Positions 1 to 16,562 of a stretch of DNA of 64,000 nt are shown here, piece after piece. Location: NCBI GenBank assembly GCA_013426805.1, contig JACDZG010000019.1:1-64000 (forward strand), written 5' to 3'. A program made the translations under genes and the position numbers. The DNA is from Chromatiaceae bacterium (GTDB lineage: Bacteria > Pseudomonadota > Gammaproteobacteria > Chromatiales > Chromatiaceae). The notes beneath the pieces are model-generated. The model saw only the letters and a list, made by a program, of their open reading frames with translations. It was not told the DNA's origin and did not search any database. Numbering within the stretch: the stretch's first letter is position 1; every line of letters begins with the position of its first letter.

Positions 1-328
1 CCTACGGAGCTTGATTCTTGATAGCGTCTTATTCGGAAATCGCCTAAAGTCCGACCGGCTGCTAGCTCTTATGAGAATGTTTGATGGGACTAATCGTAGC
101 AGAGGGTCGCTGCGGCCGCTCCTGACGACGCACGCCGCTGGCCGGGATGACGATCAAGGCCGTGTTGCGATTGGACGGCGCGGTCCTGTTGCGGTACGCC
201 GAACGGCAGTGAAGACCCGGACCAGCATCAGATGACCGCCGCGCCGCCGGGCGCCGGGACGAGGTGCTGCATCGGAGCGGTGCCGGGCATCCCGGCGCGG
301 ACGAGGGTAAGAGGGTAAAAGTGCCAAG
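1..328. other. Left edge, no supportable gene
   Basis: No convincing coding sequence is seen; a 74-codon open frame here has no recognisable features. The right end (about 303-336) is homologous to the segment that follows each of the three FGE repeats in the adjacent gene, so it is repeat tail left outside the reading frame. The segment around 142-165 also contains a short motif (CCGG-GATGACGATCAAGG-like) that recurs near 16750 and 31479. Confidence 0.5.
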
Positions 329-3300
329 CTATACGGTCCTCGAAAGGCGGAAACCGAGGAGGCCGTCGCGGTAGGACGGGTGCCCGTAGCTGCGGTACGC
401 CGAGCGGCAGAAGCCGGCGTCGCCGTTCCAGGAGCCGCCCCGAATCACCCGGTTGGAGCCCGTCTCGGGGCCACTGGGATTCTCACTGGCGAACTGCTGC
501 GCGCCACTGGCGCCTGCTGGGTTTCCACTGTAACTCGCTGCAGCATCGTTTGCACCGAACACCAACGCTCTAGCAATACGTCGCAAGCCACCCGCGCGCT
601 GCTGGCCGCCACTCGTAGCGCGCTCATTGTTACTGGCGGCTGCTGCGAGCGGGCCAGTAAGTTGCTCATAATAGTCTACCGCATACCAGTCCGCACACCA
701 CTCCCAGACGTTGCCGTGCATATCGTACAACCCCCAGGCGTTGGCCCGTTTCTGCCCGACCGGATGGAGTCGGCCGCCCGCATTCTCGCTGAACCAGGCG
801 TAGTCGCCCAGCCCGCCCGCGTCGTCGCCGCAACACAAGCGGGTCGCAGTCCCGGCACGGCAGGCATATTCCCACTGCGCCTCGCTGGCCAGTGCGTAAC
901 GCTCGCCGGTCTGTTCGCTCAGCCACGCGCAGTAGGCGCCTGCGTTGTCCCAGGAGATACCGACCACCGGCAGGTCCAGCGCCGCGCGGCCGACACCGAT
1001 CTTGTTGTAACGGTCGTTTTTGCCGGTCTCCACATGGTACTCGTTGCCCAACTCCAACCATTTGGGCCAGTGCTTGCCGGTCGCCTCGCAGAAGCCCAGG
1101 TACTCACCCCAGGTCACCGGAGTGCGTCCCAGGGCAAAGGCATCGAGCCGCACCGGGTGGACCGGCTGCTCGTCGCTGCCGCCTTGTTCGTCGCCCATTA
1201 GGAAGGTCCCGCCTGGGAGATAGACCATCTCCGGGGCCGCGAGCGCCGACGCGGCGCCGTCCTGGCCCGCGCTCTCCAGCGGATCGCGGAAGACCTCATA
1301 GGGCGCGAAGCTACGCTTCTGCGGTGGTGCTGGGGTTTGGGCGCCGACAAGGGTAAGAGGGTCAGAGTGCCAAGGGCCAGTCCTCGAAAGGCGGAAACCG
1401 AGGTCGCGGTGGCGGTAGGACGGCTCGCTCCTGCCGCGGTACGCCGAGCGGCAGTAGCCGGCGGGGTCGTCCCAGGAGCCGCCGCGCATCACCCGGTCGG
1501 AGCCCGACTCAGGGCCACTGGGATTCTCACTGGCAGGCTGCTCCGCGCCACTCGCATCTGCTGCAGTAGACTGCAAGTGGGCCGTAGGGTGCGGTGAGGA
1601 ACGAACCGCACCAGCCCCCAGCGGTGCGGTTCGTTCCTCACCGCACCCTACGTCATAGTCGCCCGCGTACCAATCCTGGCACCATTCCCACACATTGCCG
1701 TGCATGTCATGCAGGTGCCAGGCGTTGGGGCGCTTCTCTCCGACCGGATGAGTCTTGCGTCCGGAGTTCTCGGCGTACCAGGCGTAGTCGCCCAACCGCG
1801 ACTCCTCGTCGCCGTACGACCAACGGGTTTGGCTGCCTGCACGGCAGGCATATTCCCATTCGGCCTCGGTCGCGAGGCGGTAGGTCTCGCCAGTCTCCCC
1901 GCTCAGCCAGACGCAATACGCCTGGGCGTCGTCCCAACTGATGTTGATGGCCGGCTGTCGATCGCGGCCCCAACCCCGATCCTGCGGCTGCGTGCAGCCG
2001 GTGGCCGCGCAGAAGCGGTCGTACTCGGCGAAGGTCACCGGGTACTGGCCGATGGAAAAGGCCCCGACCCGCACCGGGTGGGCGGGCTTTTCGTCCGCGT
2101 GGGGACTGTCGTCCTGTCCCATGGTGAAGGTGCCGCCCGGCAGCCAAACCATCGCCGGACCTTGGGTCCCGTCAGGGAGCGGATCGCGCAGGTTGGGGAT
2201 GGGCTCCGGCTCGCGCGGGCCAAGGGTAAAAGGGTAAGAGTGTAAAGGGCCAGTCCTCGAAAGGCGGAAACCGAGGTGGCCGTAGCGGCGGGACGGGCGC
2301 CTGATGAGGCGGTACGCCGAGCGGCAGTTGCCGGCGTCGAGGCTCCAGGAGCCGCCCCGAATCACCCGGTCGGAGCCCGTCTCCGGGCCAGTGGGACCCG
2401 TTGCCAGTGGCTGCTCGCCGCTGCTCGCGGCCACTGCAGCGCCACTCGCCATAGTGAGAGTGGACTGCGAGGCGCCGTAGGGTCCGCTGCGCGGACCATG
2501 CGCCGCGCTCACCTCGGGGGCGTCGGTCCGCACAGCGGACCCTACGAACTGCTGGTAGTAGTCACCCGAGTACCAGTCCCGACACCACTCCCACATATTG
2601 CCGTGCAGGTCGTGCAGCCGCCAGGCATTGGCTTGCTTTAATCCGACCGGCCGGGTCCCATCACCCGCATTGCGACTGTACCAGGCGTAGTCCTCCAGCT
2701 GATTCGCATCGTCGCCGAAGCAGTAGCGCGTCACGCTACCCGCCCGGCAGGCGTGCTCCCACTGCGCCTCGCTCAGCAGTCCGTAGCGCTGACCGGTCTC
2801 CCCGCTCAGCCAATCGCAATAGGCTTGGGCATCGTTCCAACTGATGCAGACTACGGGGTGGCGGTCGTCCTGCGCAAAATAGGGGTTCCGCCAGCTCGCG
2901 TCATTCTTATTGCCCCAGTTTCCTTTGCCCCACACAAAGGCACCATCCCTCTTCTCCGCCTCCGTGCGGTAGCCGGTCGCCTCGCAGAACCGCCGAAACT
3001 CCCCGACCGTGACCGGGTACTTGCCGACCGCGTGGTGGCTCAAGGTCACGTCATGGGCCGGCCGCGCGTTGTCGGCACCGACACCCGCGGGGCTGCCCAT
3101 GCGGAAAGTGCCGCCGGGGAGCCAGATCATCTCAGGACCAGCATCGGACCCGTCCTGGAAGCCGTCCCGGAAAGGCGTGGGGACGGTGGGTACGGCAGAC
3201 GGCGCGGGAGGCTGCTCCGCCGCCGCCTCCGCCCGGAACTCCGCGAGAACCTCCAGGTCCCCGGCGCCCACCGCCGCCAAGGCGCGGGCGACCCGGGCGT

Positions 3301-5008
3301 AAGAACCGCCGAGCCGGGCCAGGACCGTGGCGGCGATGGTCGCGAAGTGCCTGGTATTGAGATCATCCAGCGCACGGTCCAGGCCGGCCGCCGCCGGCAG
3401 CCGCAGCGAACCGGGCAGTTCGAGCAGTGCCTTGAAGTCGAGGGCCTGGCCGAAGCGCGCCGCGAGCAGGCCGGAGACCTCCTGGAGCACGTGCAGGCTG
3501 ACGGCACCGCTGGACAGGTCGAGCAGTGCCGCGCGCACGCCCGGATGGAAGTCGAAGAAGGGCTCGCCGTCCGTTTGCTCCAACCGCGGCTCGCGGCGCA
3601 GCAGTCCGCTGACGAAGATCTCGGCCAGGTGGGTCTGGCCGGAGTCGCGCAGCCAGGTCTGCTGGATGAGGCGCATCACTTCGAGTGTGAGGGGCGCGGC
3701 GGCGACCAGTCCCGCGAGGTCACGGGCGGGCGCCGAGGCCGTGGCGAGAAAGCGTTCGAGCCGCCGCTGCACCGCCGCCGCGTCCGGGGCGCGCACCGCG
3801 GGCACCGCTGCCGCCGTGAGGTACCGGGTCGCGGCCCCAAAGCGCACGCCCGGCAGCGAGGCGCGCGCCTGGCCGGTCAGCAGGGCGGACCACTCGCGCA
3901 CGGCGGCGGGCTCCGGGGTCAGCACCGGCAAGACCAGGTCGGGCCGACCCGTGGCAGCGACATACCAGTCCGGGGGGATGGAGCGCGGCTCCGGGTCCAA
4001 CTCGATGAGCGCGCGCGTGGCCACTCCGGCACGGGGCGCGGCGAGCCGGATCGGCAGGCCGCGCCCGAGCGCGGTCTCCCGCCACAGGCGCGCCGGGAGC
4101 ATCTGCAAGACGGCGAGCGGACCGCCCTGGGCGAGCGGAGCCAGACAGCGCAGCACCGCGCCGGCATGCCAGGCGGGGGCGACGCAGTCGCTGGCCACCA
4201 GCACCGCGCGGCGGCCGTTGGCGGCGACGAGCCGCCCGGGGGCGAGCCGCCGGGCGCGCTCCGGGTCACCGGGGGCGTGCAGCCAGGCGTCGGGCCCGCG
4301 GGTCGCCAGCGCGAGCAGGCGCACCCGCGAGAAGGCCCCGTTGTAGGCGAGCATCCGCCGCAGTTCGGCGAGCAGCGGACCCCAGACCAGCATGGAGGAG
4401 GCGGTGTCGACGATCAGCAGCAACTCGAACCACCGCTCCCCGGCGGGCCTGAGGATGGGGGTGAGGACGGCGTGGCCGGCACTGCGCTGCTCGGCGTAAT
4501 ACGCGACGGTGGCGGCCTCGTCGAGCCGCCGCGCGGTGCGCGAGGGCAGCCGCCGGTGCAGCCGGCGCAGGGCGCGGCCGAGCGCCAGTCCATCGGGCAG
4601 CGGATGGGCGCGCGGGACGCGCAGCGGTGCCGCAGTGCGGCTTCCGGCGCGGGTGCCGGCGCTCGGCAGGACCTTGGCCGTGGGCACGGCGGTTCCTTGG
4701 GCCGGCGTCGGTTGCGGCCGCGGCGGGTCGGCGGCGTCGGCGGGACCGATCGCCGGCCGCTCCGGCCGCGCGGTCGGGACGGCATCCGCGGCATCCCGCG
4801 GCGGCGGCGAGTCCGCCGGGCGGCGGGTGCCGGTCGCCGCGCCCTGGGCCGCCAGCCACAGCACGTCCGCCAGTTCCGCGGCATCCGGATCGAGGCCGAG
4901 CCGGTGCAGGGTCGCGCGGACCTGCGCGAGGTCCGCGTCGGCCAAGGCCGGGGGCCGCGCCGCGGTCGGCGCGGCCAGGCCAAACAGGCGGCGCAACAGG
5001 CTGAGCAT
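329..5008 (-). CDS. vWA/SAV_2336-like protein with three C-terminal FGE-sulfatase domains (conflict-system sensor candidate)
   Basis: The predicted product has 1559 residues. The N-terminal part (about 130-560) resembles SAV_2336-type/vWA proteins: a Rossmann-like core with ELLLIVDTASSM near residue 195-206, a partial MIDAS, and a following helical region. Three formylglycine-generating-enzyme-type domains follow, starting near 625, 945 and 1255, each opening with M-x-x-LPGGTF-x-MG and closing with RGGSW...CRSAYR...LGFRLSRT. FGE domains have the C-type lectin fold and often act as ligand binders rather than enzymes. The gene is followed 27 bases upstream on the same strand by a MoxR ATPase and then a VMAP-like protease, the known partners of vWA proteins in NTP-dependent conflict systems. 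The three domain ends differ in a codon-restricted way typical of DGR targets, and palindromes are embedded in the coding loops of domains 1 and 2. The enzymatic activity of the FGE domains is unproven. Confidence 0.85.
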   Translation of the reverse strand: MLSLLRRLFGLAAPTAARPPALADADLAQVRATLHRLGLDPDAAELADVLWLAAQGAATGTRRPADSPPPRDAADAVPTARPERPAIGPADAADPPRPQPTPAQGTAVPTAKVLPSAGTRAGSRTAAPLRVPRAHPLPDGLALGRALRRLHRRLPSRTARRLDEAATVAYYAEQRSAGHAVLTPILRPAGERWFELLLIVDTASSMLVWGPLLAELRRMLAYNGAFSRVRLLALATRGPDAWLHAPGDPERARRLAPGRLVAANGRRAVLVASDCVAPAWHAGAVLRCLAPLAQGGPLAVLQMLPARLWRETALGRGLPIRLAAPRAGVATRALIELDPEPRSIPPDWYVAATGRPDLVLPVLTPEPAAVREWSALLTGQARASLPGVRFGAATRYLTAAAVPAVRAPDAAAVQRRLERFLATASAPARDLAGLVAAAPLTLEVMRLIQQTWLRDSGQTHLAEIFVSGLLRREPRLEQTDGEPFFDFHPGVRAALLDLSSGAVSLHVLQEVSGLLAARFGQALDFKALLELPGSLRLPAAAGLDRALDDLNTRHFATIAATVLARLGGSYARVARALAAVGAGDLEVLAEFRAEAAAEQPPAPSAVPTVPTPFRDGFQDGSDAGPEMIWLPGGTFRMGSPAGVGADNARPAHDVTLSHHAVGKYPVTVGEFRRFCEATGYRTEAEKRDGAFVWGKGNWGNKNDASWRNPYFAQDDRHPVVCISWNDAQAYCDWLSGETGQRYGLLSEAQWEHACRAGSVTRYCFGDDANQLEDYAWYSRNAGDGTRPVGLKQANAWRLHDLHGNMWEWCRDWYSGDYYQQFVGSAVRTDAPEVSAAHGPRSGPYGASQSTLTMASGAAVAASSGEQPLATGPTGPETGSDRVIRGGSWSLDAGNCRSAYRLIRRPSRRYGHLGFRLSRTGPLHSYPFTLGPREPEPIPNLRDPLPDGTQGPAMVWLPGGTFTMGQDDSPHADEKPAHPVRVGAFSIGQYPVTFAEYDRFCAATGCTQPQDRGWGRDRQPAINISWDDAQAYCVWLSGETGETYRLATEAEWEYACRAGSQTRWSYGDEESRLGDYAWYAENSGRKTHPVGEKRPNAWHLHDMHGNVWEWCQDWYAGDYDVGCGEERTAPLGAGAVRSSPHPTAHLQSTAADASGAEQPASENPSGPESGSDRVMRGGSWDDPAGYCRSAYRGRSEPSYRHRDLGFRLSRTGPWHSDPLTLVGAQTPAPPQKRSFAPYEVFRDPLESAGQDGAASALAAPEMVYLPGGTFLMGDEQGGSDEQPVHPVRLDAFALGRTPVTWGEYLGFCEATGKHWPKWLELGNEYHVETGKNDRYNKIGVGRAALDLPVVGISWDNAGAYCAWLSEQTGERYALASEAQWEYACRAGTATRLCCGDDAGGLGDYAWFSENAGGRLHPVGQKRANAWGLYDMHGNVWEWCADWYAVDYYEQLTGPLAAAASNNERATSGGQQRAGGLRRIARALVFGANDAAASYSGNPAGASGAQQFASENPSGPETGSNRVIRGGSWNGDAGFCRSAYRSYGHPSYRDGLLGFRLSRTV
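337..439 (-). repeat. Variable segment 3 (DGR-type target candidate) at the end of FGE domain 3
   Basis: This segment codes from GGSW to the final residues. Its constant blocks (GGCGGCTCCTGG, TGCCGCTCGGCGTACCGC and the 23-bp block at 337-359) are identical in DNA to the other two copies. Between them the codons differ almost only at positions 1 and 2 and nearly all end in C, as expected for adenine-directed mutagenesis of AAC codons. The copy after this one lies beyond the stop codon: a length difference of 2 bases just after the 23-bp block introduces TAG. Confidence 0.65.
1381..1483 (-). repeat. Variable segment 2 (DGR-type target candidate) at the end of FGE domain 2
   Basis: It has the same framework as the segments at 337-439 and 2254-2356. 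The 23-bp 3' block (1381-1403) is identical in all three. Variable codons here read GAC GAC CCC, then TAC, then GGC AGG AGC GAG, TAC, and CAC CGC GAC. A homologous tail of about 30 bp (1348-1380) follows and remains in frame. Confidence 0.65.
1583..1652. repeat. Perfect 30-bp palindromic element inside the FGE gene
   Basis: Arms 1583-1612 and 1623-1652 are perfect inverted repeats of 30 bp around a 10-base loop. The core GGTGAGGAACGAACC recurs in the intergenic element near 16486. It lies in the coding sequence, in the loop before the conserved GSDRV-MRGGSW segment of FGE domain 2, and encodes part of the insert that makes this loop longer than in a minimal FGE domain. The reading frame stays open through it. 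Confidence 0.9.
2254..2356 (-). repeat. Variable segment 1 (DGR-type target candidate) at the end of FGE domain 1
   Basis: It has the same framework as the other two segments. Variable codons read AGC CTC GAC, then AAC, then CTC ATC AGG CGC, CGC, and TAC GGC CAC, between DNA blocks identical to the other copies. The homologous tail at 2225-2253 remains in frame and leads into FGE domain 2. Confidence 0.65.
2476..2546. repeat. 22-bp palindromic element inside the FGE gene
   Basis: Arms 2476-2497 and 2525-2546 are inverted repeats with one mismatch and a 27-base spacer. The arm sequence (TAGGGTCCGCTG-type) is the same family as the intergenic palindrome at 16689-16746. It sits in the same structural loop of FGE domain 1 that holds the unrelated palindrome of domain 2, and is read through in frame. 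Confidence 0.85.
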
Positions 5009-5035
5009 GGGGTGCGCGCGCTCCGCTCTGCCGGT

Positions 5036-6049
5036 TCAGCCGGAAAGGCTGCGCAGCAGGGCGTCGAGCAGGGACCGCTGGTCCTGGTAGCGGGCCTCCG
5101 GGTCGATGTCTTTGAGGACCAGATAGACGGCGTTGAGCAACTGGTCCGCCGCCAGCTCCTGCTGCCGATGGTCGCGCCGGTCGATGAAGATCCGCACCAG
5201 CTCGGCGATGCGCGCCTCCAGTGCCGCATCGCCGCCTGCCGCCGCGGTCCCGGCGCGGAACAGGTGGCCCTTGACGATGGCGATGAGTTCATCGTTGTCC
5301 GGCGGGGTCATCTCGAGCTGCAGGCAGCGGCGCAGGAAGGCCGGGGGGAATTCGCGCTCGGCGTTGCTGGTCATGATCACCAGCGGGAACTGACCGCAGC
5401 GCACCACACCGCGCGCGATGGGAATCCCGTGGGAGGCCAGGGTGGCGCCGGGCGGGGCATCGTAGGGGAGGATCGGCGGGTCATCCTGGCCCTGGGGCAG
5501 GCGCGCCAGTTCCGGGATCTCGAACTCGCCCTCCTCGAAGATGTGCAGCAGGTCGTTGGGCAGGTCGATGTCGCTCTTGTCGATCTCATCGATCAGCAGT
5601 ACCCGCGGCCGGTCGGCGGAGTCGAGGAAGGCGCTGCCGAGCGGCCCCAGGCGCAGGAAATGACCAATGGGCGGCGGGTCGAGCCGCTCCTTCTCGCAGC
5701 GCGAGGTCTCTTGCAGCCGGCCGATGGCGTCGTAGCGGTAGAGCCCGTCGTACAGTCTGGTCTGGGTGGTGACCGACCAGCGCAGCACGGCCTTGAGTCC
5801 CAGTTCGGCGGCCACGGCATAGGCGAGCGAGGTTTTGCCGACCCCGGGCTTGCCGGTGACGAGCAGCGGCCGGCGCAGATAGAGCGCGGCATTGACCAGC
5901 GCGATCTCTTCCCGGCGGGCCTGGAACTCGGCACCGCGGGCGGCCTTCGCCGCCGCGCTGAAGCGGCGCCAGGGCGGCGGCTCGGGCAGGTCGGCGACGG
6001 CCTTGGGACCGCGGAAGACCCACCAGTCGGGTGGTTCGATTGGTGTCAT
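5036..6049 (-). CDS. MoxR-family AAA+ ATPase
   Basis: The product has 337 residues. The start ATG at 6049 (MTPIEPPDWW) is preferred because upstream in-frame sequence is unconserved in character. Visible motifs are Walker A (LLVTGKPGVGKTSLAYAV, about residue 60-77) and Walker B with the following helix (RVLLIDEIDKSDIDLPNDL, about 150-168), then the sensor-type sequence TSNAEREFPPAFLRR. MoxR ATPases remodel client complexes with a vWA partner. Here the vWA-FGE protein is directly downstream (27-base gap) and the protease/VMAP-like gene is upstream, which supports the energy-coupling role in a ternary conflict system. Family assignment is firm; the role is inferred from the neighbourhood. Confidence 0.9.
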   Translation of the reverse strand: MTPIEPPDWWVFRGPKAVADLPEPPPWRRFSAAAKAARGAEFQARREEIALVNAALYLRRPLLVTGKPGVGKTSLAYAVAAELGLKAVLRWSVTTQTRLYDGLYRYDAIGRLQETSRCEKERLDPPPIGHFLRLGPLGSAFLDSADRPRVLLIDEIDKSDIDLPNDLLHIFEEGEFEIPELARLPQGQDDPPILPYDAPPGATLASHGIPIARGVVRCGQFPLVIMTSNAEREFPPAFLRRCLQLEMTPPDNDELIAIVKGHLFRAGTAAAGGDAALEARIAELVRIFIDRRDHRQQELAADQLLNAVYLVLKDIDPEARYQDQRSLLDALLRSLSG

Positions 6050-6173
6050 TGCTGTTCTCCAGTGAGGTGGATCAGCGTAGCGCATCCACCATCAGTCAGC
6101 CGCGTCGCCAACACGTCGCCGACGGCGGCCACCGAAATTTGGAATTGCTGGGAGGGACGCCAGCACCCGGCGG

Positions 6174-8003
6174 TCATTCGCCGACACCGTAGAGCCCCTC
6201 CCAATCGCCCACCGGGGGCGGGTCCCAGAGCAGGGTCAGATGGGCCGCGGCGTCGTCCGGGCCGGGTTGATCCGGCAGGGCGCGGCGCAATCCGCGCATC
6301 AGCTCGGCCAGGTCGCGCAGCGGCCGGCCGGCGAGCGCGGTATCGACGCACCGGCGCAGCCGTTGCGCGTCCAGCGCCCGACGCGGCCACAGGACGACCG
6401 GAGCGAAACGTCCGCCGAGCAGATACCTCAACAGGTTGGTATTGCCGTCGCCGTCGGCCGTCGGCGGTTGACCGAGGGCGATGCAAGCGCCCGCCTCCAG
6501 GGCGCCGCGAGCGGCGTCCTTGGCTTGGGCAATATCGGCGGCAGGCGCGTCGCACCAATGCAGCGGTGCCGGAAAGGGCTCGTGCAGGCGCGCTTCGAGC
6601 GTACTCCAGTGGGTTTGCCAGAGCCAATTGCAATCGGCAGCGGCGTGGCGCGGGGCATACTGGACCACCACCGGGAAGTCGGCGCCGATGGGGTCGCCGT
6701 CGCTCGGCCGCCAGCGATCGACGGGCAGCGCGAGCTGGGACCAGGGGAGACGGAAGGCGAAGGTCACGCGCTGCCCGGCGCCGGCATAGCGCCCCAGGCG
6801 GCCCAGGAGCAGATCGAGCAGTTCCCCTGTCGCGACCGCGTTCCTGGGATCGAGACCGTCGCGGTCGAGCCACCGACCCAGGTCCACCGATCGCGGCGCT
6901 TGTCCGCCCGGCGGCGCGAAGCGGGCCTGGACATAGAAACGCTTGCCGGTCTGTTCCGGCACCACATCGAGCAACTCGATCTCCATGCAGCACGGCTCCG
7001 CGGCAGGGTCGTCCGCCGCGGGCTGGGTGCAGTCGAGGTCCGGATTGCAAGCGGCGATGGCCTCCCGGATGTCGCGCAGGCGCTGTCGTCTCAGATCGTC
7101 CGTTATTGCCGGCTCCAGGCGCGCCAGCACGTCGTAGAGCAAGAGATGGCGGTTCACCAGGCGGCCCTTGCGGATCAGCCAGAAGAGAAAGGCAAAGGGG
7201 TCGCCGCCGGGCGGAAAGTCGAGTTCGAGGCCGGGGGGTGCGCACCGCTCGCAATGGACTTTGAGGGCGTCGAGGGTCAAGCCCGCGGGGAGGGGGGAGA
7301 AGAGTTCAGCAAGCGATTGGCTGGTGTCGCCGTCGAGCGGTTGGTCAGCCAAGTCCTGCCATACCAGGCCGGGGGCATCGTCGGGCCAGATCTCGCGCAG
7401 GTGCTCGATGGCGATGGCATAGCCGGCTCCCCCGTCGCCATGCTTGTAGCGGGCCACGGCAAAGACGGCATGCTGAGTCAGGCAGATGACCGGCGCCCCG
7501 CTGTACCCATGGTCGATCAGCGGCTCCTCGGGGTCGAAGCGTGCGGAATCGGCGTCGGCGAAACCCGCGACCTTCAGCGCCAACGTGTGCTGGGTGGTCC
7601 CTGGTTGACGCGAGAAGCGTTTGCGGCGTCCCACGACCGTGCGCAGCCGTTCACACTGCTGGTCCTTCGCGCCCTGCGCCACCGCATGCCACCCGGGGAC
7701 ATCCGCCGCGGTACCGTACAGCGTAGTCAGGCCCCAGGGCCGCGCATCCAGCCGGCCCTCGACCTTGAGGACGGCCAGATCGATGTCGGGGCGCTCCTTG
7801 CCGACGGACTGGGCCGGTCTGCCGTCGACCCTGACCCCGTCCGGCGCGCCGTCCTCGATCACATGGGCACAGGTGACGACCCAGGTGGCGTCGTCCGCGA
7901 CCTGGACGACGAAGCCCGTCCCGACGGTCTCTTTACTGCCGGACGGCCGGCCGGCAGTGACCTGAACGATCGAGTCCCAGTCGGCCTCGGCCCAATGTGT
8001 CAC
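6174..8003 (-). CDS. Trypsin-like serine protease with effector-associated and VMAP-C-like regions
   Basis: The product has about 609 residues. The GTG at 8003 is chosen because AAGGAGGG lies 6 bases upstream; a TTG at 8006 is the alternative. The N-terminal 210 residues form a trypsin-like peptidase: TCAHVIEDG supplies the histidine, DIDLAVLKV the aspartate and GYSGAPVI the serine. A helical region (about 225-330, SLAELFSPLPAGLTL...) resembles effector-associated domains. The C-terminal half, ending in the HLTLLWDPPPV segment, resembles the VMAP-C domain of vWA-MoxR-associated proteins. In this class the VMAP is thought to link an effector to the MoxR/vWA pair, the protease being the likely effector. 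Domain names come from memory of the family pattern and need a profile search. Confidence 0.8.
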   Translation of the reverse strand: MTHWAEADWDSIVQVTAGRPSGSKETVGTGFVVQVADDATWVVTCAHVIEDGAPDGVRVDGRPAQSVGKERPDIDLAVLKVEGRLDARPWGLTTLYGTAADVPGWHAVAQGAKDQQCERLRTVVGRRKRFSRQPGTTQHTLALKVAGFADADSARFDPEEPLIDHGYSGAPVICLTQHAVFAVARYKHGDGGAGYAIAIEHLREIWPDDAPGLVWQDLADQPLDGDTSQSLAELFSPLPAGLTLDALKVHCERCAPPGLELDFPPGGDPFAFLFWLIRKGRLVNRHLLLYDVLARLEPAITDDLRRQRLRDIREAIAACNPDLDCTQPAADDPAAEPCCMEIELLDVVPEQTGKRFYVQARFAPPGGQAPRSVDLGRWLDRDGLDPRNAVATGELLDLLLGRLGRYAGAGQRVTFAFRLPWSQLALPVDRWRPSDGDPIGADFPVVVQYAPRHAAADCNWLWQTHWSTLEARLHEPFPAPLHWCDAPAADIAQAKDAARGALEAGACIALGQPPTADGDGNTNLLRYLLGGRFAPVVLWPRRALDAQRLRRCVDTALAGRPLRDLAELMRGLRRALPDQPGPDDAAAHLTLLWDPPPVGDWEGLYGVGE

Positions 8004-8032
8004 CAAACGCCCTCCTTGCCGCGCCGCGGGAT

Positions 8033-8383
8033 TCAGCCGGCGCCGGGGTCCGGCTTCGGCCCCGGCTTCGGCTCAGGCTTCGGCGCCAGCTTGAGCCGGA
8101 CCTTGAGGTTGGCGCTGCCTTTCGCCTTGGTGACGAACAGATTGCCCTCGCCCTCGAAGCCCAAGCCGATCTCGACCTCCGCCTCCCGGACCTCCAGGTC
8201 CTTGTTCAACTCCCGCCACACCTCGACCATTGGCTTGGCGACCCGCAGCAGCAGCGGCCGGATGTTCTCGACCGTCACCCCCTTGATCAGCCGCGGTCCG
8301 TCGGCCACCTCCTCCACCTGCGCCGCGGTCGCCTCGACCTCGATCAAGGTGCCGTCTTCCAACTCGATCAGTCTGAACGCCAT
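8033..8383 (-). CDS. Trypsin-co-occurring (Trypco1-like, CU044_2847-type) protein
   Basis: The product has 116 residues from ATG 8383 (MAFRLIELEDGTLIEVEAT). The pattern of an N-terminal beta strand with LEDGT, a central helix and a C-terminal GLGFEGEGNLFVTKAKGSANLKV strand region matches the small domain that co-occurs with trypsin-like effectors in conflict systems. A Pro/Lys-rich tail (KPEPKPGPKPDPG) ends the protein. It precedes the protease gene by 29 bases on the same strand and is probably the first gene of the operon. Function is unknown; regulation or recruitment of the protease is an inference. Confidence 0.75.
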   Translation of the reverse strand: MAFRLIELEDGTLIEVEATAAQVEEVADGPRLIKGVTVENIRPLLLRVAKPMVEVWRELNKDLEVREAEVEIGLGFEGEGNLFVTKAKGSANLKVRLKLAPKPEPKPGPKPDPGAG

Positions 8384-8603
8384 GGCAACGACTCCGCGGG
8401 TGTGCGCCGGTAGTGAATCCACGACTGAGGATAACACGCGCGGAAAGGTGGTTGACAGCGGCCGGCGCACCGGCCGCCTCAGGCAGTGCAGGGCCGGAAC
8501 GGCGGCTTGCGACTCCGCCGCGAGGGGAGACTTTGCGTCGAGCGGTCACGCCTCCCGACTTGGGAGGTAAAATGTGCGGCAACAACCGAGTGGTGTTCAA
8601 TGA

Positions 8604-8975
8604 ATGACTATTCAGCCGATACGCAATGACGCGGACTTGCGCGCCGCGTTCGAACGGCTGGAGTCCATTTTCCAAGCAACTCCAGGGACGCCCGAGGCGG
8701 ATGAGATGGAGGTGCTCGCGACGTTGGTCGAGTCTTACGAGAACCGACATTACCCCATCGGCCCTGCCGACCCGGTGGATGCCATCAAATTCCGCATGGA
8801 TCAACAAGGTCTGGCGGCGAAAGACCTGGAGCCTTTCATTGGCTCGAGCGGACGCGTCTCGGAGGTGCTGAACCGCAAGCGCTCGCTCAGCCTGCGCATG
8901 GTGCAACGCCTGCACCATGGCCTCAAGATCCCATACGACAGCCTGCTGTCCAATGCGTCTGGTCGGGGTGAATAA
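8604..8975 (+). CDS. HigA-like helix-turn-helix antitoxin without visible toxin
   Basis: The product has 123 residues. The N-terminal part (DADLRAAFERLESIFQATPGTPEADEMEVL) and central YENRHYPIGPADPVDAIKFRMDQQGL are typical of the HigA/YgjM family. The HTH region is LAAKDLEPFIGSSGRVSEVLNRKRSLSL. HigA proteins are DNA-binding antitoxins normally encoded just after higB. The 220 bases upstream contain no HigB-like reading frame, so the toxin has been lost or the gene acts as a lone regulator. Confidence 0.8.
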   Translation: MTIQPIRNDADLRAAFERLESIFQATPGTPEADEMEVLATLVESYENRHYPIGPADPVDAIKFRMDQQGLAAKDLEPFIGSSGRVSEVLNRKRSLSLRMVQRLHHGLKIPYDSLLSNASGRGE

Positions 8976-9081
8976 CAGGACGACAGACAGTTCCGCGCCG
9001 GAGCCGAGACTCTGGTGAGCGCAGTCGTCGAGCTTGAGTGCAGACACGGCGTCAGTCACCAGCACCAGGACGCGGCGCCGC

Positions 9082-10857
9082 TCAATCAGCCAGCAGACCG
9101 AAGACCCAGCGGTCCCGCGGCGCATCGAAACCCCGAACGTAGAGTCGCCCCCGGTCACCGAGCCGCGCCAGCACGCGGCCATCGGCGCTGGCCCGCAAGG
9201 CGATGCCGTCCGGGTCGACCGCCACCGGCGCGCCCACCGCCGCCGCCACATCGGCGGTATAGACCTTGACCTCCAGCGGCGGGTCGTCGAGCAAACAGTA
9301 GAGCCGATTGCCTTGCAGACCCATCACGGTCCCGCGTCGGCGTGGCCGCTCGGCCGCGGGGAGCTCCAGGTCCGCCCGGAAGAGCGCATCGATGACGGCC
9401 CGGTTGAGATCCTTCACCAGCCGTGACTGGAGTTCCCGGGCGCGGTTGGCGCCGTCGATGACCCGTTGGCGCAGCGCACGGTCGTTGCTCGCACCGCTGG
9501 GCGCTGCTCCGGTCAGCTTCTCGATGGTTTCGTGGTGCAGGAAAATGCCCACGATCTCCCGCATGGGGGCGGTGAAGCGGCCGTAGACTTCGGCCCCCAC
9601 CCCCGCATGGGGCGCCGGCGCGGCCGAGTAGGTGGCGCGCAGGTTGGTGATCACCGCCTGCCGGTTCACGACCTGGGCCAGCCGCCCCGCGTCCCCGTCG
9701 GCCGGCAGTCCACGCAGATAGTCGGCCAGGCTCTGACCGGCTTGCCGCTGCCAGGTCCAGACCGCCGGGTCGAGCTGCCGCAGCGCCACCAGTCCGGCAA
9801 GACGCCGCTCCAACGCGGCCAGCGCCGCGGGCGGCGGAGCCGGGTGGACCCGGTAGATCGGCTTGATGGCATCGTCGGCGTTGTCACCCTCTAGGAGGAA
9901 GCGCGCGCCCTGCGTGTTGCAGAGCACGGAGACTTCTTCATTCCAGCGCTCCACGGGGTTCACCACCGGCCGCACCGGGACCAGTCCTCGGCCGCCCGCG
10001 GTCAGGGTCAGATCGACCTCATCGCGCCGATAGCGCACCACCCCCTCCCGGTCGCGCCGCCGCGCCAGGGTCTCGCCCAGGTCGCGAAAGGCGGCCAAGC
10101 TCGCGAGCAATGCAGGCGCTTCCGGACCGGCGCCGGCGTCTCCGGCAAGCATCAGCGCCACCTGTCCGAACGCCAGCTTGGCGCGGCTGCGGATGCGCGC
10201 CCGCACCCAGTCGCGCCGACTGACCTGGCCGTCGGCGTCGAGCTCCAGGACCATGACCAGCGCCCGCCGTGCAACCGCGGGGGCGAGCGAGACGATGTCT
10301 TCGGACAGCACCCTGGGGAGCATGGGGATCGTGAGCCCCGGCAGATAGACGCTCGATGCCCGCCGCAAGGCCTCCGCGAACAGGGCGCTGCCCAGGGGCG
10401 CGAACCATGCGGCATCCGCCAAGGCGTAATGGAGCCGAAAGCCCTTCACCAAGGCTTCGACGTGGAGCGCCTGGTCCAGGTCGCGGGTCGTGGGACCATC
10501 GATGGTGCAGAACGGCAGCCCCGTCAGGTCCGCGAGCAGCGGGTCGTCGATCCCTGGGCGCGCGCGCAGCGCGTCCGCGTCCGCCATGACCCTGGGCGGA
10601 AACACAGGATTCAGCCCGTGGCGAACGGCCAGCGTATAGACCGCGGCCAAGGCGCTGCCGGAGGTGGCGAGACGCTCGCGCACCCACGCACCCCGGGAGT
10701 CCGTCTCGGCAAGCACATAGTCGCCGTCACCGACCGCCTCGCCTACGGCCAGCGGCGACCGGCGCGCGGGGGTGGGGTCGAAGCAACGTTCCAACAGCGG
10801 TCGGCCCTCGACGTGGATGCCGAAGCCCAGAAACAATTCGCGGTCAGACTGGTCCAT
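9082..10857 (-). CDS. RNB-domain ribonuclease (RNase II/R family)
   Basis: The product has 591 residues from ATG 10857 (MDQSDRELFLGFGI); an upstream in-frame start at 10962 would add 35 atypical residues. The signature of the RNB catalytic core is present: PFCTIDGPTTRDLDQAL supplies the acidic metal ligands, followed by YALADAAWF, LPRVLSEDIVSLAP and, near the C-terminus, YGRFTAPMREIVG. This class degrades RNA 3' to 5'. It is shorter than RNase R, and cold-shock and S1 domains are not obvious; the last 100 residues look like a degenerate OB fold. No operon partner is evident. Confidence 0.88.
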   Translation of the reverse strand: MDQSDRELFLGFGIHVEGRPLLERCFDPTPARRSPLAVGEAVGDGDYVLAETDSRGAWVRERLATSGSALAAVYTLAVRHGLNPVFPPRVMADADALRARPGIDDPLLADLTGLPFCTIDGPTTRDLDQALHVEALVKGFRLHYALADAAWFAPLGSALFAEALRRASSVYLPGLTIPMLPRVLSEDIVSLAPAVARRALVMVLELDADGQVSRRDWVRARIRSRAKLAFGQVALMLAGDAGAGPEAPALLASLAAFRDLGETLARRRDREGVVRYRRDEVDLTLTAGGRGLVPVRPVVNPVERWNEEVSVLCNTQGARFLLEGDNADDAIKPIYRVHPAPPPAALAALERRLAGLVALRQLDPAVWTWQRQAGQSLADYLRGLPADGDAGRLAQVVNRQAVITNLRATYSAAPAPHAGVGAEVYGRFTAPMREIVGIFLHHETIEKLTGAAPSGASNDRALRQRVIDGANRARELQSRLVKDLNRAVIDALFRADLELPAAERPRRRGTVMGLQGNRLYCLLDDPPLEVKVYTADVAAAVGAPVAVDPDGIALRASADGRVLARLGDRGRLYVRGFDAPRDRWVFGLLAD

Positions 10858-10972
10858 GGCTACCTCGGCGTCGCCCTCGGGGCGCTTGCGTATTGGACAA
10901 AACCGTCGCAGGAGCAGCGCTACGTCACATCGTTGACTGACCGCGCTTGGCCGACCCTTCATGCCGCTGCCA

Positions 10973-11506
10973 TCATTCGGCCAGCGTCAGCGTCACGTGG
11001 ATGACATCGTCGCGGCGCTCCACCGTCATGGGCAGTCCGCAGCGGGAAAAGACAGCGAGCATCGCGCCGTTACGCTGCAACACATCCGCTTCCAGCCGTG
11101 CTAGCCCACGCTCGCCGGCAATCCGGATCAGGTGTCGCAGGAGACGGCTGGCGAGACCCTGACCTTGGTACTGTTCCTCGACGGTGAAGGCGATTTCGCC
11201 GCTGCGCACACCGTCCGACTCGAACACATCGTAGCGGGCACCACCGATGATGGTCTCCCCTTCCCCCTGCCCGACGGTCACGACCAACACGACGTCCCGC
11301 TCGAAGTCCACTTCGGTGGCACGCCGGAGATCCTCGTCAGTCAACGCGTTCTTATGCGCAAAAAACCGCGTGTAAATGGATTCGGGCTCCAACTCCCGGA
11401 ACGCCGCCAGGAGTCTGGGCTTGTCATCCGGGCGAATGGCCCTGACCGTCACCGCCGTGCCATCTTTCAGATGCTCGGCGGTGGCGAAGTTGCGAAGGTC
11501 CAGCAC
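10973..11506 (-). CDS. GNAT-family N-acetyltransferase
   Basis: The product has 177 residues. The N-terminal GTAVTVRAIRPDDKPRLLAAFREL and the acetyl-CoA binding loop EEQYQGQGLASRLLRHLIRIA (about 110-130) define a GNAT domain. The arrangement (RAIRPDDKP...ESIYTRFF) resembles the C-terminal acetyltransferase domain of the protein acetylase Pat, here as a stand-alone enzyme without the CoA-ligase part. The substrate is unknown. It ends 115 bases upstream of the RNase start on the same strand. Confidence 0.85.
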   Translation of the reverse strand: MLDLRNFATAEHLKDGTAVTVRAIRPDDKPRLLAAFRELEPESIYTRFFAHKNALTDEDLRRATEVDFERDVVLVVTVGQGEGETIIGGARYDVFESDGVRSGEIAFTVEEQYQGQGLASRLLRHLIRIAGERGLARLEADVLQRNGAMLAVFSRCGLPMTVERRDDVIHVTLTLAE

Positions 11507-12062
11507 GTCGGCGCCCCCAATTCAATCGTTGTTGCTTTCCACCAGATTATCACTTGTCGAAGCTCGCCGTACCGATGCCCTCAGCCCGACGCCCCCCAGC
11601 GGGCTGCGCTCGCCACACTCGATCACGGACTGCCATTGCGCGCGGGTAGGGTGCCGGCGACGCGGGATCGACCGGCAGACCGAACAACTGGTTGGCCAAT
11701 CCGTGGTGGTCTCGCCGACCAGCAGATTGATGTGCGTGCTTGACACCGGCTCGACGCGTTGCTTGAAGATCATGGTATGTGCGCAGACGCACAGACGGGT
11801 TCCTCACGGATTTCCAGCATCCGCGATGTGCGGGCAACCTCGCCCCCCCGCTCAGCATGTCCTATGCGGTTTATGTCAAGATCGTGTTTGCGCGGCACTG
11901 GTCCGGCTAAGACGATTTCCGAAGAATTTCATACCACGCGAGATCTACCTCCGGTAACTCGGGCGACGCGACCGGAGGCCGACGCTTTAGCGGGCGGCGG
12001 TGCCGCGTCCGGCTGAAGCCTCGACCTCCGGTCTGTTGTGCGTGTGCATTTTCATCCGGCGA
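11507..12062. other. 556-base intergenic segment without supportable gene
   Basis: Short open frames occur (for example 11522-11773, minus), but their translations look like random GC-rich sequence and no ribosome-binding site supports them. The segment separates two minus-strand genes. No palindrome of the families found elsewhere was noticed here. Confidence 0.4.
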
Positions 12063-13019
12063 TCAAGGCCCGAATCGCTCGGGATCGGTCAACACCCAGG
12101 TCCGGACACGGGGCACCGTGAGTCCCGTGTCCTCGGCGAAGATCCGCTCCGTTTCGGCCAGCGCTCCGTCGTCGAACATGCCGGTCGCATTCAGGCCATC
12201 GGACGCCCACAGGCGGGCAAAGACGGCCGCTGCAATCGGCGGTGAGAGCCCATAGAACTCGACCAGCTTGGCTATCGTGTCGTCTGGGTGCGCGCGCAGA
12301 TCCCGGAGCGCGCGCTGATAGATCGTGATGAACGCCGCGAGGGAGGCTCGGTGGCTGCGACTGCCGAGCCACGATCGATTGAGATTGGCCACCACCCCCT
12401 GATACCGCGGGACGACCGCATTCCCGCTCAAGGCGGCAATGCGGGTGACGCCGGGCCGGTAAGAAAACGGCGGGTTCAAGAGCGTCGCGTCGAGTTCCTG
12501 TGCCCGTAGTTTTTCATAGCGCAGGTCAGTCGCACCGGCCATGATCCACACGAGTTGGCGATACGCGTCAGCGTTCGACAAACGATCACGCAGGTATCGG
12601 CGCAGCGCCCGCGCATAACCCGTATCGGTATCAATGCCCACGCGGTTCTTGTTGGCGGCCAGATCGAGGGTGCCGCACAGGTCCAGCAGGCCGCCATGAA
12701 TGGGCATAAAGGCCGCGATCTCACCGTACTGCTCCTGAAGCGCCATGGACAAGGTATCGTCGTAGGACATGAACACGATGTCCGCTTGCTGCCTTCTCAA
12801 GCGGGTATGGGCTTCGTCGGCGTTCTTGACGTAGGTGATCTGGAGGGCGACGGCATAATCCTTGCGGACCGTCTCGAGTAGGAAGGCCGAAATGTCCCGA
12901 AACGCGGCGATCTGCAAGGGTGGCGTGGCTGGATCAGCGGCACAGCGCTGGCCGCGCAGCAACACCGAAAGAAGCAACACGCCGAGCAACTCCCAGACAA
13001 CGAGCGAGCGATTGAACAT
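12063..13019 (-). CDS. Periplasmic solute-binding protein of ABC-transporter type (SsuA/PhnD-like)
   Basis: The product has 318 residues from ATG 13019, giving a signal peptide (MFNRSLVVWELLGVLLLSVLLRG) with processing near the CAADPA segment. The domain then reads as a type-2 periplasmic-binding protein: ITYVKNADEAHTRLRRQQADIVFMSYDD is a typical first lobe, and ATLLNPPFSYRPGVTRI and the C-terminal PDDTIAKLVEFYGLSP helix fit the SsuA/NMT1 group. No permease or ATPase gene lies beside it, so it is either an orphan binding protein or a periplasmic sensor subunit. The ligand cannot be told. Confidence 0.7.
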   Translation of the reverse strand: MFNRSLVVWELLGVLLLSVLLRGQRCAADPATPPLQIAAFRDISAFLLETVRKDYAVALQITYVKNADEAHTRLRRQQADIVFMSYDDTLSMALQEQYGEIAAFMPIHGGLLDLCGTLDLAANKNRVGIDTDTGYARALRRYLRDRLSNADAYRQLVWIMAGATDLRYEKLRAQELDATLLNPPFSYRPGVTRIAALSGNAVVPRYQGVVANLNRSWLGSRSHRASLAAFITIYQRALRDLRAHPDDTIAKLVEFYGLSPPIAAAVFARLWASDGLNATGMFDDGALAETERIFAEDTGLTVPRVRTWVLTDPERFGP

Positions 13020-13163
13020 CGTTGGTGTGTCCGATGGTGGCAATACCGGTGTCGGCGAGTCTAATGAAATCGGCGCGCTGCCGATAGACCGACCCTCGCC
13101 CGAATCAGGGTTTTTCGGCGACTGTCGACCGCTTCACCAAGGCATCGCACGCTTGTGACACCG

Positions 13164-13206
13164 CTCCGCGGTGTCATGCCTGCCTGAGGCGCTCTGCGCC
13201 GAGTGG
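13164..13206. repeat. Direct repeat copy 1 bordering the ATPase/PIN module
   Basis: These 43 bases match 16587-16629 in the same orientation with three mismatches. Immediately to the left, 13141-13166 matches about 16205-16230 with one mismatch. The left border therefore looks like a contiguous copy of sequence that is split by about 356 bases on the right side of the module. Confidence 0.8.
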
Positions 13207-13758
13207 TCAAGTCCCAAGCATTCGCGCCGGTTCATGGGGTGCCCCGGCCGCGAGCCACTCCAGCGGGTGCTCGCTCTCCATGGTCGGATTGACCCATACC
13301 ACGTCGCGCAAGACGGCCAGCGTCGGCGAGCACGCACGGAAGTGGTTGCGAACCTTTTCATCGTGAGCAGCAACCGAAGCGTTACCCGCAGCCGCGGATG
13401 CCTCGATCAAATGGGAATCCTTCAGCATCGCCGCACTCCAGGCATCCGCCGTCTCGGTATCGTTGTTCGCTCGGTGCTTGGCACAAGCAACCAAACCCCG
13501 TCGAAGCAGTGGGTCGCCAATGGATTGCAGTCGCGTCACCCGCCTTCCCGCGTACATTGAGGTAAGCCATTGCCGCGCGAAGCGAGACCGATGTGCCTTC
13601 CACTCGGCATGAAGTTCGCTGCCGAACACAAGCGTCAGCGATCCCGCGCGGAGCGCTTCAAGGAATGCGCGGCACGCGCGAGAGGTGGGGTGCTCCGTTG
13701 CTCCTGCTGCTTGCGCGATGGATGCGTCCACAACAATCGAATTACACTTCGAAGTCAT
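13207..13758 (-). CDS. PIN-like nuclease, partner of the adjacent DUF3696-type ATPase
   Basis: The product has 183 residues. The start SIVVDASIAQAAG places an aspartate as in the first PIN strand. The middle DTETADAWSAAMLKDSHLIEAS and the later VAAHDEKVRNHF supply further acidic positions in the order expected for PIN-like folds, although the protein is longer than VapC and lacks a clean PIN signature. Its start overlaps the stop of the upstream ATPase by four bases, so the two are probably co-translated. The likely role is an RNA- or DNA-cleaving effector controlled by the ATPase. Confidence 0.6.
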   Translation of the reverse strand: MTSKCNSIVVDASIAQAAGATEHPTSRACRAFLEALRAGSLTLVFGSELHAEWKAHRSRFARQWLTSMYAGRRVTRLQSIGDPLLRRGLVACAKHRANNDTETADAWSAAMLKDSHLIEASAAAGNASVAAHDEKVRNHFRACSPTLAVLRDVVWVNPTMESEHPLEWLAAGAPHEPARMLGT

Positions 13759-15047
13759 CGTGCGCTCCGCGCCTCGACAGCATCAAGGTAGGCACCTTCG
13801 ACGTCCAGCGCTACATCGTCGAAGTCCGTTGGCCACTCGCCAAAAGCGCCGTCAGCGTCCAGTGCGGCCCGACTCACCGCAGAAACGCCGGTTTCCGGAT
13901 CGCGCGCGAACCAATTAAGGCTCACGTCATGCTCACTGATCTCGCCGAGAGCGACCGCCGTTTGAATGCTGCGCAGCAAGATCCCGCTATGCGTTTCGAC
14001 GACGACCCGCACGCCGCGCCTTGCCGCCGCCACGAGCGTTGAGGCCATCGCGGCCTGCGCCCGTGGATGCAAATGTAACTCGGGCTGCTCAATATAGACC
14101 AGACGGCCGGCGTCGGCAACGTGGAGCGCTACCAGCACCGACAGGCTTTGGGATACGCCGAAACCGACATCCGCGATGTCCACAAGATCCTGATTGGTCG
14201 AGCGGCGGTCTGCGGGAAGGCGTCCTACGCGGAGTTGAACCTGAGTGTCGTTAACCGGCTCGGCGCTAATGTAGGGCGCCAAGCCAAGCGTTTGCAGGTC
14301 CTGAACCAGTGCCCAAAAACGCGACTCATCCAAACGTTGCCAATGCCGGATCAGGCTGGCCACATAGGGCTCGAAAGTGCCGGGAAAGTGGCGCATGACT
14401 TCCGTCGTTTGGTAAGCGCGCTCAGGATTGCCGCGCAGACCGGGGACGTGGATGATGTCCTGAAGGTTCGGGATCAGTGGTGCAGCCGGCTCTAAGACCC
14501 TGCGGTCACTCGCTCTCACCAGGGCCAGATAGGTCAACATTGGATCGCTCGAAGACAATTCAAGAAATGCAAAACTGCGTCGGGTGCTGATCTCCGGAAT
14601 TGCGGAATCGCTATCGTCAACCCGATAATCCACCAGGATGCTGCGCAACGCGGCCCAGAGTTCAGACTTATCACTCGACGGCGTGATCGTTGCCATTGGC
14701 TCGCCGCGCGAGCGTCGAAATGACATGGCCTTGATATCAAACTTGCGGTCGTCCCGGCGTCCATAGACCATGCGAATCGCTGTGCCTTGGACGCTATCCA
14801 CCTCAATCTCGAATTGGTCGCGGCCTTCAGATAGGAACTGCTCTGCCGACGTGAAGTGAACGCAAGGTCCATTCAACAGCAATGCTCCCGGATCGAACGG
14901 CGCTTCCAGCGTTTGTTTCCACAAGAGAAGGGGCTGCATAATGCTCGATTTGCCGGCGCTGTTGGCTCCCGCCAATAGCGTGAGCGGTGCAACCTCAATC
15001 TGCTGCTCGGTGTCGATGGACTTGAAGCCCTTAACAGCGATGCGCAT
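13755..15047 (-). CDS. AAA family ATPase of the DUF3696/OLD-like ABC-ATPase type
   Basis: The product has 430 residues from ATG 15047 (MRIAVKGFKSIDTEQ). Walker A is LLAGANSAGKSS (about residue 24-35). The ABC-type Walker B/D-loop is LVYIEQPELHLHPRAQAAM, followed by VVVETHSGILL. The C-terminus (LDADGAFGEWPTDFDDVALDVEGAYLDA) matches the DUF3696 tail. Such SMC/OLD-like ATPases pair with nuclease effectors in anti-phage systems. Here the partner is the downstream PIN-like gene, joined by an ATGA overlap. The sensing function and target are inferred, not shown. Confidence 0.85.
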   Translation of the reverse strand: MRIAVKGFKSIDTEQQIEVAPLTLLAGANSAGKSSIMQPLLLWKQTLEAPFDPGALLLNGPCVHFTSAEQFLSEGRDQFEIEVDSVQGTAIRMVYGRRDDRKFDIKAMSFRRSRGEPMATITPSSDKSELWAALRSILVDYRVDDSDSAIPEISTRRSFAFLELSSSDPMLTYLALVRASDRRVLEPAAPLIPNLQDIIHVPGLRGNPERAYQTTEVMRHFPGTFEPYVASLIRHWQRLDESRFWALVQDLQTLGLAPYISAEPVNDTQVQLRVGRLPADRRSTNQDLVDIADVGFGVSQSLSVLVALHVADAGRLVYIEQPELHLHPRAQAAMASTLVAAARRGVRVVVETHSGILLRSIQTAVALGEISEHDVSLNWFARDPETGVSAVSRAALDADGAFGEWPTDFDDVALDVEGAYLDAVEARSAR

Positions 15048-15143
15048 GATACCCGACTCGGGAGGGGGTACGCGGAGAGGGCGATCAGGCATGAATGTCT
15101 ACCAATAATTCGAGGGGGTAGAAGGGTTGGGATCGAGTATTGA

Positions 15144-15326
15144 TCAGTCGCTGGAGCGGCGGCTTCCGGCCCCATTGCTGTTACGGAGCAATTCCAGGTT
15201 CATGGGTCGCTTCCGACCCGAGAATTTCATCCGACCCGCGTATCTGAGCACGCCGAGATGGTTTGACTGACGCATTGCCGCAGCCCAAGTTCGCACCATG
15301 GCCTGAATCCGTTTAGCGATGCTCAT
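15144..15326 (-). CDS. Possible small basic protein between the ATPase and HerA remnant
   Basis: An open frame of 60 codons starts with ATG at 15326 preceded by a weak GAAGAA. It is rich in Arg and Ser, shows no recognisable domain, and lies 20 bases after the HerA-like pseudogene on the same strand. It may be a non-coding remnant. Confidence 0.25.
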   Translation of the reverse strand: MSIAKRIQAMVRTWAAAMRQSNHLGVLRYAGRMKFSGRKRPMNLELLRNSNGAGSRRSSD

Positions 15327-15346
15327 TTCTTCGATCGTCCTGGCCG

Positions 15347-16209: not shown

Positions 16210-16485
16210 CGCACGCTCGTGACACCGCTCTGAGATTGTGAAAGTCTTCGCTCCGAACCCGAAAACATCGCAATGCCGTAGGTTGCCGTGAAAGTCCGGC
16301 TGGCTGTGGCGCAAACTCAACCCTCGCCGTCTCAAAGAGACACGATGCGGATACGAAGCCTGCTAAGCATCCGGCGGTCGGCCAAGCACTACCCCCGTGG
16401 GTGCCTATAGCGTCGCGCCTTGGGCTCGGCACCAGCAAGGATAGCTGGACTTTCATGGGCGGGGGCGAGCGCCCCGATCATGACC

Positions 16486-16562
16486 GTTGGGGTGAGGAAC
16501 GAACCCCAATATTTCAGCGCCTTACGTTTGGCTGCTCGTTGGGCTTCGTTCCTCAGCCGAAC
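16486..16562. repeat. Imperfect palindrome of the GGTGAGGAACGAACC family
   Basis: The left arm 16486-16509 and right arm 16538-16562 are inverted copies with a few mismatches. The core GTGAGGAACGAACC is shared with the perfect palindrome embedded in the FGE gene at 1583-1652. Confidence 0.7.

Follow-up and report, generated by a model that had tools for sequence, protein, structure and literature searches.

Several described systems join diversity-generating retroelements (DGRs) to bacterial conflict systems. Fusions of vWA to FGS with DGRs occur in gammaproteobacterial VMAP systems, and, in passages of the same paper, the association with DGRs is reported for about 80% of the VMAP systems of cyanobacteria and gammaproteobacteria (Kaur 2020, PMC7159879). 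As described in parts of a later study, DGR 4 and 5 of Thiohalocapsa sp. PB-PSB1 have MITE-like arrays in place of a reverse transcriptase (RT) gene, their targets are written in trans and their variable repeats (VRs) vary in metagenomes; the authors propose that the target serves as an antigen sensor, with MoxR as the relay and the VMAP peptidase as the effector (Dore 2024, PMC10907252).

Here we describe a locus of this kind in a window of 64,000 bp (G000:C126:1-64000) from a 7.6-Mb genome in 349 contigs that holds 12 RVT_1 matches. In our reading, to which we give a probability of about 0.65, the window encodes a three-VR DGR target, a putative VMAP sensor, which lost its cis cassette and whose VRs were later rewritten in trans. 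Its features are as follows.

329..5008, minus strand: DGR target protein, 1,559 aa, with a SAV_2336/vWA-type N-terminus and three FGE domains
3449..4885, minus strand: SAV_2336 N-terminal (vWA-type) domain, SAV_2336_NTERM, residues 42-520 (coordinates converted from residues)
2249..3172, minus strand: FGE domain 1 (FGE1), from a domain search
2254..2356, minus strand: variable repeat 1 (VR1) of FGE1, assigned to a putative template X
1376..2191, minus strand: FGE domain 2 (FGE2), FGE/C-type-lectin fold in an AlphaFold2 model
1381..1483, minus strand: variable repeat 2 (VR2) of FGE2, assigned to a putative template Y
332..1291, minus strand: FGE domain 3 (FGE3), from a domain search
337..439, minus strand: variable repeat 3 (VR3) of FGE3, assigned to the putative template X
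5036..6085, minus strand: MoxR-type AAA ATPase (AAA 1.2e-7, AAA_5 2.4e-6; the name MoxR rests on the neighbourhood)
6174..8006, minus strand: trypsin-like peptidase with a VMAP-C domain (VMAP-C 1.7e-22, Trypsin_2 2.3e-8)
8033..8470, minus strand: Trypco1 adaptor protein (8.6e-11)

VMAP-C, AAA ATPase, SAV_2336_NTERM and Trypco1 thus stand side by side, and the target itself matches SAV_2336_NTERM over residues 42-520 (NCBIfam, E 1.3e-113) and FGE-sulfatase (Pfam, E 2.8e-154). The first-pass annotation had called it a vWA-FGE protein of a conflict system; the neighbours and the SAV_2336_NTERM match bear out the conflict system, whereas for vWA the target has no Pfam hit, and its N-terminal domain is one that we take to be vWA-type from its LLIVDTASS motif rather than from a model hit. 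By sequence, the target is the SAV_2336/vWA-type component of a ternary conflict system made up of Trypco1, trypsin/VMAP and MoxR. Among plasmid records, 583 matched the target protein, all at less than 60% identity.

The target carries its VRs at the C-terminal ends of domains with a C-type-lectin/FGE fold. For FGE2, the AlphaFold2 model (mean pLDDT 88.9) predicts the FGE/C-type-lectin fold; a fold search with this model placed FGE and PvdO chains at ranks 1-6 and TvpA at rank 7, and TvpA is also the closest PDB sequence to FGE2, in line with the lectin fold of known DGR targets that had been claimed for these domains. TvpA is itself described as a DGR variable protein (Kaur 2020, PMC7159879). 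Aligned to 2aft, FGE2 has an incomplete pair of catalytic cysteines, with Cys at the second place and Asp, from a variable codon, at the 336 place. In human FGE, these cysteines are 336 and 341, and both are catalytic. At the 336 place, the VR alignment gives Leu in FGE1 and Gly in FGE3. With one of the two catalytic cysteines missing, the sequence of the FGE domains fits binding rather than catalysis.

Two perfect or near-perfect palindromic repeats, at 1583-1652 (30-nt arms) and 2476-2546 (22-nt arms), lie in frame within the linkers of FGE2 and FGE1, respectively, just upstream of the VRs, and the first coincides with the low-confidence residues 187-210 of the FGE2 model. The genome has 30 places like the 30-nt arm and 234 like the 22-nt arm, and the latter repeat stands at base 1 of some contigs (for example, C15, C31 and C67).

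The first-pass annotation had proposed DGR-type hypervariable segments at 337-439, 1381-1483 and 2254-2356, and it had both the coordinates and the strand right. Of the 33 codons between GGSW and RLS inclusive, the three copies have the same DNA at 21; the remaining 12 codons are all nonsynonymous, none is synonymous-only, and the third base varies in just 3 of the 33. The remainder of the FGE domains, 222 aligned codons, comprises 48 identical, 123 nonsynonymous and 51 synonymous-only codons, with the third base varying in 141; among 190 stretches of 33 codons outside the VRs, third-base-variable codons numbered at least 17 and identical codons at most 11, none of them near the VR values. The dozen or so differing codons and the common 23-bp 3' block of the earlier account are real, the block lying within those coordinates. 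Its codons ending in C are found in all three copies at 9 of the 12 variable codons, and the other three mix C and G.

Comparisons of VRs below use 99 bases, made up of 23 adenine sites of the template described in the next paragraph and 76 other positions. FGE1 and FGE3 differ at 15 bases, every one at a template adenine (7/8/0 by codon position), and at 0/76 elsewhere, as against 37 differences (12/12/13 by codon position) in the 99 bp just upstream. The VR of FGE2 differs from either at 5/76 non-adenine positions, so the framework identity first reported for all three copies holds between FGE1 and FGE3 and fails for FGE2.

We assembled a TR-like probe from the VRs of the window, and its best match in the genome was C259:2392-2492, a template whose variable codons carry A and which lies 30 bp after an RT open reading frame, C259:1267-2361; the template was found with that probe but is not itself built from the window VRs. 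The C259 RT carries IGNLTSQ...YMDD, in which we take the SQ after IGNLT to mark DGR RTs. Among PDB sequences, it matches 8ub7 best ('Reverse transcriptase', presumably the Bordetella phage DGR enzyme), with E 6.3e-57 as compared with 6.4e-20 for a group II intron RT. Beside it lie an Avd gene (above the NCBIfam cut-off for 'diversity-generating retroelement protein Avd') and an HRDC gene, giving a complete cassette of RT, Avd and template of one class, as the first-pass annotation had expected when it suggested looking for a template repeat next to a DGR RT elsewhere in the genome. A sister cassette on C347 has its own template and an RT 80% identical to that of C259, with one TGA flagged at the N-terminal end and an open catalytic core.

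Measured against the C259 template, VR1 and VR3 each differ at 15/23 adenines and 2/76 other bases (Fisher p 2.6e-10 for each), and VR2 differs at 13/23 adenines and 4/76 other bases (Fisher p 2.8e-7). Confinement to adenines is clear if imperfect, in agreement with the signature of an adenine-mutating RT noticed at the outset. Because an RT-linked template has A at the variable codons and the differences are concentrated there, the DGR reading is supported, and the three segments are DGR variable repeats. The C259 template alone has 14 variable codons, with no possible stop, and could yield 10^13.5 peptides per VR. We give almost no credence to ordinary domain duplication followed by diversifying selection on surface codons without a DGR: FGE modules are indeed duplicated and change in number (two in the counterpart from a congener, G002), but such a history predicts neither a template beside an RT that carries A in the codons that vary, nor 0/33 synonymous-only codons in the VR against 51/222 outside.

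Machinery of this kind is not confined to one contig. Six templates, on C259, C347, C198, C139, C152 and C311, lie 30 to 551 bp from an RT, and 14 of 19 VRs in the genome match one RT-linked template with 0 non-A mismatches, so the class works genome-wide. The 19 VRs are those seen on nine contigs (C126, C259, C71, C347, C198, C221, C152, C139 and C311, some partly covered) by similarity to the C259 framework, a search that may miss distant VRs and in which hits with low framework scores were not counted. VRs without a template of their own match one elsewhere, on three contigs (C71_1392, C71_7913 and C221_7331 with 0 mismatches, C71_6749 with 1), where C71 was covered for bases 1-12000 and C221 for bases 9000-22000. 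Candidate trans targets include L036:7331-7429 (C221), which matches the C198 template with 0 non-A mismatches, and L033:7913-8011 and 6749-6847 (C71), which match the C139 template with 0 and 1 mismatches. At the C347, C198, C152, C139 and C311 templates (L034, L035, L037, L154 and L155), VRs match at all non-A sites.

The five exceptions are C71_348 (2 non-A mismatches), C71_6749 (1) and the three window VRs, which have 2, 4 and 2 (VR1, VR2 and VR3) to the nearest template found and match none exactly. Relative to the C259 template, the VRs of FGE1, FGE3 and C71_348 have two deviating positions in common, 19 and 59, a sequence pattern that implies one putative unseen template, X (layout AAC AAC AGG CAC). 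In the VR of FGE2, four bases spread over three neighbouring codons deviate, and this likewise implies a putative template Y (layout AAC AGG AAC GAG). Since the window VRs have non-A mismatches to every template found, the sequences imply at least two candidate templates that we have not seen. The four bases of FGE2 recur in VRs of congeners, namely G002 (C69_9043 and C183_12565, and C69_7999 with further changes) and G006. Neither the C347 template (12, 6 and 12 non-A mismatches) nor those of C198, C139, C152 and C311 (21 to 30) could be the source of the window VRs.

Using a pattern that covers X and Y, a search of 210 family genomes at up to 2 mismatches returned, as intact templates, only C259, C347 and one in G112 (another genus), together with one remnant. 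With up to 3 mismatches allowed, 55 relatives gave C259, C347, remnants in G002 and the window, and, in G005, a template that belongs to another class. The G112 template has layout X in its middle codons, and five of its other bases differ from the window VRs. One possible account, which we hold tentatively, is that a further C259-class cassette with template X, and perhaps Y, was collapsed or is missing in the 349-contig draft: target genes are cut by an end of C259 and of C71, contig ends fall at the 234-place repeat with which C15, C31 and C67 start, and the G112 template shows that layout X exists in the middle codons of a real template. Against this, the genome itself yields only the two C259/C347-type templates at up to 3 mismatches, and it was scored 100% complete, by a measure that does not cover repeats.

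The window locus has no RT, accessory gene and intact template in cis, only the remnants at 163-231, and a motif scan found no DGR RT motif in the window. These remnants are:

163..210, minus strand: degenerate template-repeat remnant, joined directly to the accessory-gene remnant
209..231, minus strand: 23-bp remnant of the DNA around the C259 HRDC gene start, 95.7% identical (window tail 110-132 against C259 downstream 145-167)

On the 3' side of the stop codon, the first 78 bases of C259-type downstream DNA are kept at 92% identity, about 1.9 kb is missing relative to C259, and the contig ends at window position 1. The locus once had its own cassette, from which the accessory and RT genes were deleted. 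The same junction is found at the same place in the congener locus G002:C69; the simplest reading of this common scar is a loss before the two species split, and it could also have spread between species by recombination. The locus in G002 (L145:4816-9153), with this same 3' scar, has a different upstream part, and its one open reading frame runs trypsin - protein kinase - FGE - FGE.

At G002:C69, the positional counterpart of VR3 (L145:9043) is of layout Y, with 13/23 A sites and 6/76 other positions unlike those of VR3. Should the scar be ancestral, these different VR3 layouts mean that at least one of the two loci has been rewritten or exchanged since. The G002 assembly has no C259-class RT (a single hit, with 39% identity across 116 residues), and rewriting in trans there is therefore unsupported by present gene content; an exchange of FGE modules could also have produced the different layouts, given that the window protein has three and its G002 counterpart two. 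Between the window and G002, 33/197 bases differ in VRs and 159/1141 in flanks, so that the VRs taken whole are only slightly the more divergent, and a contrast becomes visible only when A sites are separated.

Framework differences were also counted between VRs of one protein. They number 0/74 in 4/4 pairs with a cis template, 0/74 between VR1 and VR3 of the window, 4/74 in the window pairs with VR2, 1/74 on C71, 2/74 in G002 and 3 to 15/74 in the orphan three-FGE loci of G004, G007 and G011 (G006C147_1052, with its disrupted 5' part, was left out of these counts). By that measure, VR1 and VR3 were written recently. The three-VR locus of G007 (L151:6769-8904) lies in a near-closed genome of 3 contigs, shows a framework drift of 3-4/74 and has no matching template that we found in that genome. 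We consider a fossil origin rather unlikely, in which templates that have since vanished wrote the window VRs ahead of the loss of the cassette or shortly after it, and the VRs are now fixed as a frozen sensor: non-A mismatches to every template found, the remnant TR and deleted RT, and the framework drift of the orphan loci speak for such a history, and the absence of drift between VR1 and VR3 despite 37/99 differences upstream, a 3' block and post-VR tract kept as in template-bearing loci, and the presence of the C259 machinery in the genome speak against it.

The tract just mentioned is a (YTTACCC)2-like sequence, present at three places in the window.

2221..2242, minus strand: tract that follows VR1, in a coding linker; 22-base pattern matched with 0 mismatches
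1348..1369, minus strand: tract that follows VR2, in a coding linker; 22-base pattern matched with 2 mismatches
302..323, minus strand: tract that follows VR3, beyond the stop codon; 22-base pattern matched with 3 mismatches

It follows 27 of 28 VR-like segments of the class, in coding or noncoding DNA (segments from G000, G002, G004, G006, G007, G011 and G112), degraded in some (for example, G004_VR3, G007_3 and C347_7770), tripled as repeats after one and absent after the diverged G002C183_13666. GAGGAC precedes the tract in 26/26 segments listed, and the three listed templates read GAGTAC and lack the tract; at the corresponding base 101, all six VRs compared with the C259 template (the three of the window, C71_348, C71_1392 and C259_248) have GAGGAC where it has GAGTAC, and we take this base to lie outside the copied part. 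Within the genome, the 22-base form at up to 3 mismatches occurs at 7 places, each just after a VR, as against 0 for a reversed control; after the class's eighth VR, a 20-base form is matched with 4 mismatches. The window has 4 matches, two of them overlapping, against 0.02 expected. Because the tract falls in coding linkers behind the inner FGE domains, yet past the stop codon behind the final one, its position argues for a role of the DNA itself.

A hairpin like that of BPP-1 was sought after the VRs and found no support: in 75-nt stretches, z ranged from -0.58 to 1.51 against shuffles, with 8/8 no better. This fold test leaves room for short stems, and one of 6 bp follows VR3. In other DGR classes, the DNA after the VR is T-rich with TTTACCC (C198, C221) or holds repeated CACTGA (C152) or TTGACAC (C311). 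The loci with such other-class DNA after the VR are:

L037:5557-7932
L035:5824-5922
L155:6610-9249

Such a tract is not mentioned in the parts available to us of PMC3240598, PMC12875486 or the PMC10907252 main text (without supplements), and it may be published. We see it as a concrete candidate for how this DGR class finds its targets, both internal and remote.

Taken together, we envision that an RT-Avd complex would copy the template RNA with random bases opposite adenines and that the cDNA would replace the final part of an FGE domain, with the common 3' block and, probably, the post-VR tract fixing the site, randomising about a dozen codons per domain. The locus would have had its own cassette until the accessory genes and RT were deleted, leaving the scar that it has in common with the congener, and after this deletion the window VRs would still have been rewritten in trans by C259-class DGRs, from templates slightly different from those now found in the genome. 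By analogy with the published proposal, ligand binding may then be relayed via the MoxR ATPase to the trypsin-VMAP effector. A bolder and more speculative extension, which we would hold at well under even odds, is that the orphan sensor is kept variable as a client of other DGRs (X for FGE1 and FGE3, Y for FGE2), is addressed by the (YTTACCC)2 tract and not by a hairpin, and belongs to a chassis on which templates, VRs and N-terminal signalling modules are mixed across species. If the two-template reading is true, one protein would be diversified by several templates at once. Rewriting in trans would also have a testable case here, since the target's own RT is gone.

The closest likeness is to DGR 4 and 5 of Thiohalocapsa sp. 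PB-PSB1, a member of a different genus, in which, as far as the text available to us describes them, one target likewise combines an N-terminal vWA with three tandem C-type-lectin VR domains, within a VMAP ternary system and a genome of several DGR classes (PMC10907252). Away from adenines, however, the VRs of DGR 4 and 5 agree with the DGR 2 template at every site, whereas the window VRs match no template exactly. Passages of PMC7159879 describe systems that are alike in their vWA fused to FGE/FGS, MoxR, VMAP with a trypsin-like peptidase and DGR link, and these passages mention neither three VRs per protein nor lost templates. In the same family, the L193 locus of G112 (another genus, complete 3.78-Mb genome) also has a three-FGE target with a MoxR neighbour; unlike the window, it retains an intact RT and template in cis, 3/3 of its VRs have 0 non-A mismatches and its vWA domain (VWA_CoxE) sits in a separate protein. 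The class also resembles the DGR of Bordetella phage BPP-1 in its RT, Avd, template, VRs, adenine mutagenesis and common 3' block, as given in parts of PMC3240598 and PMC12875486; efficient homing in BPP-1 depends on a hairpin that follows the VR, and the window class has a pyrimidine tract there.

Overall, the DGR-linked, three-lectin ternary architecture is already published, and the window system belongs to a described group, to which it adds the orphan state with a common scar, evidence for at least two putative unseen templates and the post-VR tract. Beside PB-PSB1, it provides another purple sulfur bacterium in which several DGRs feed the multi-lectin sensors of conflict systems.
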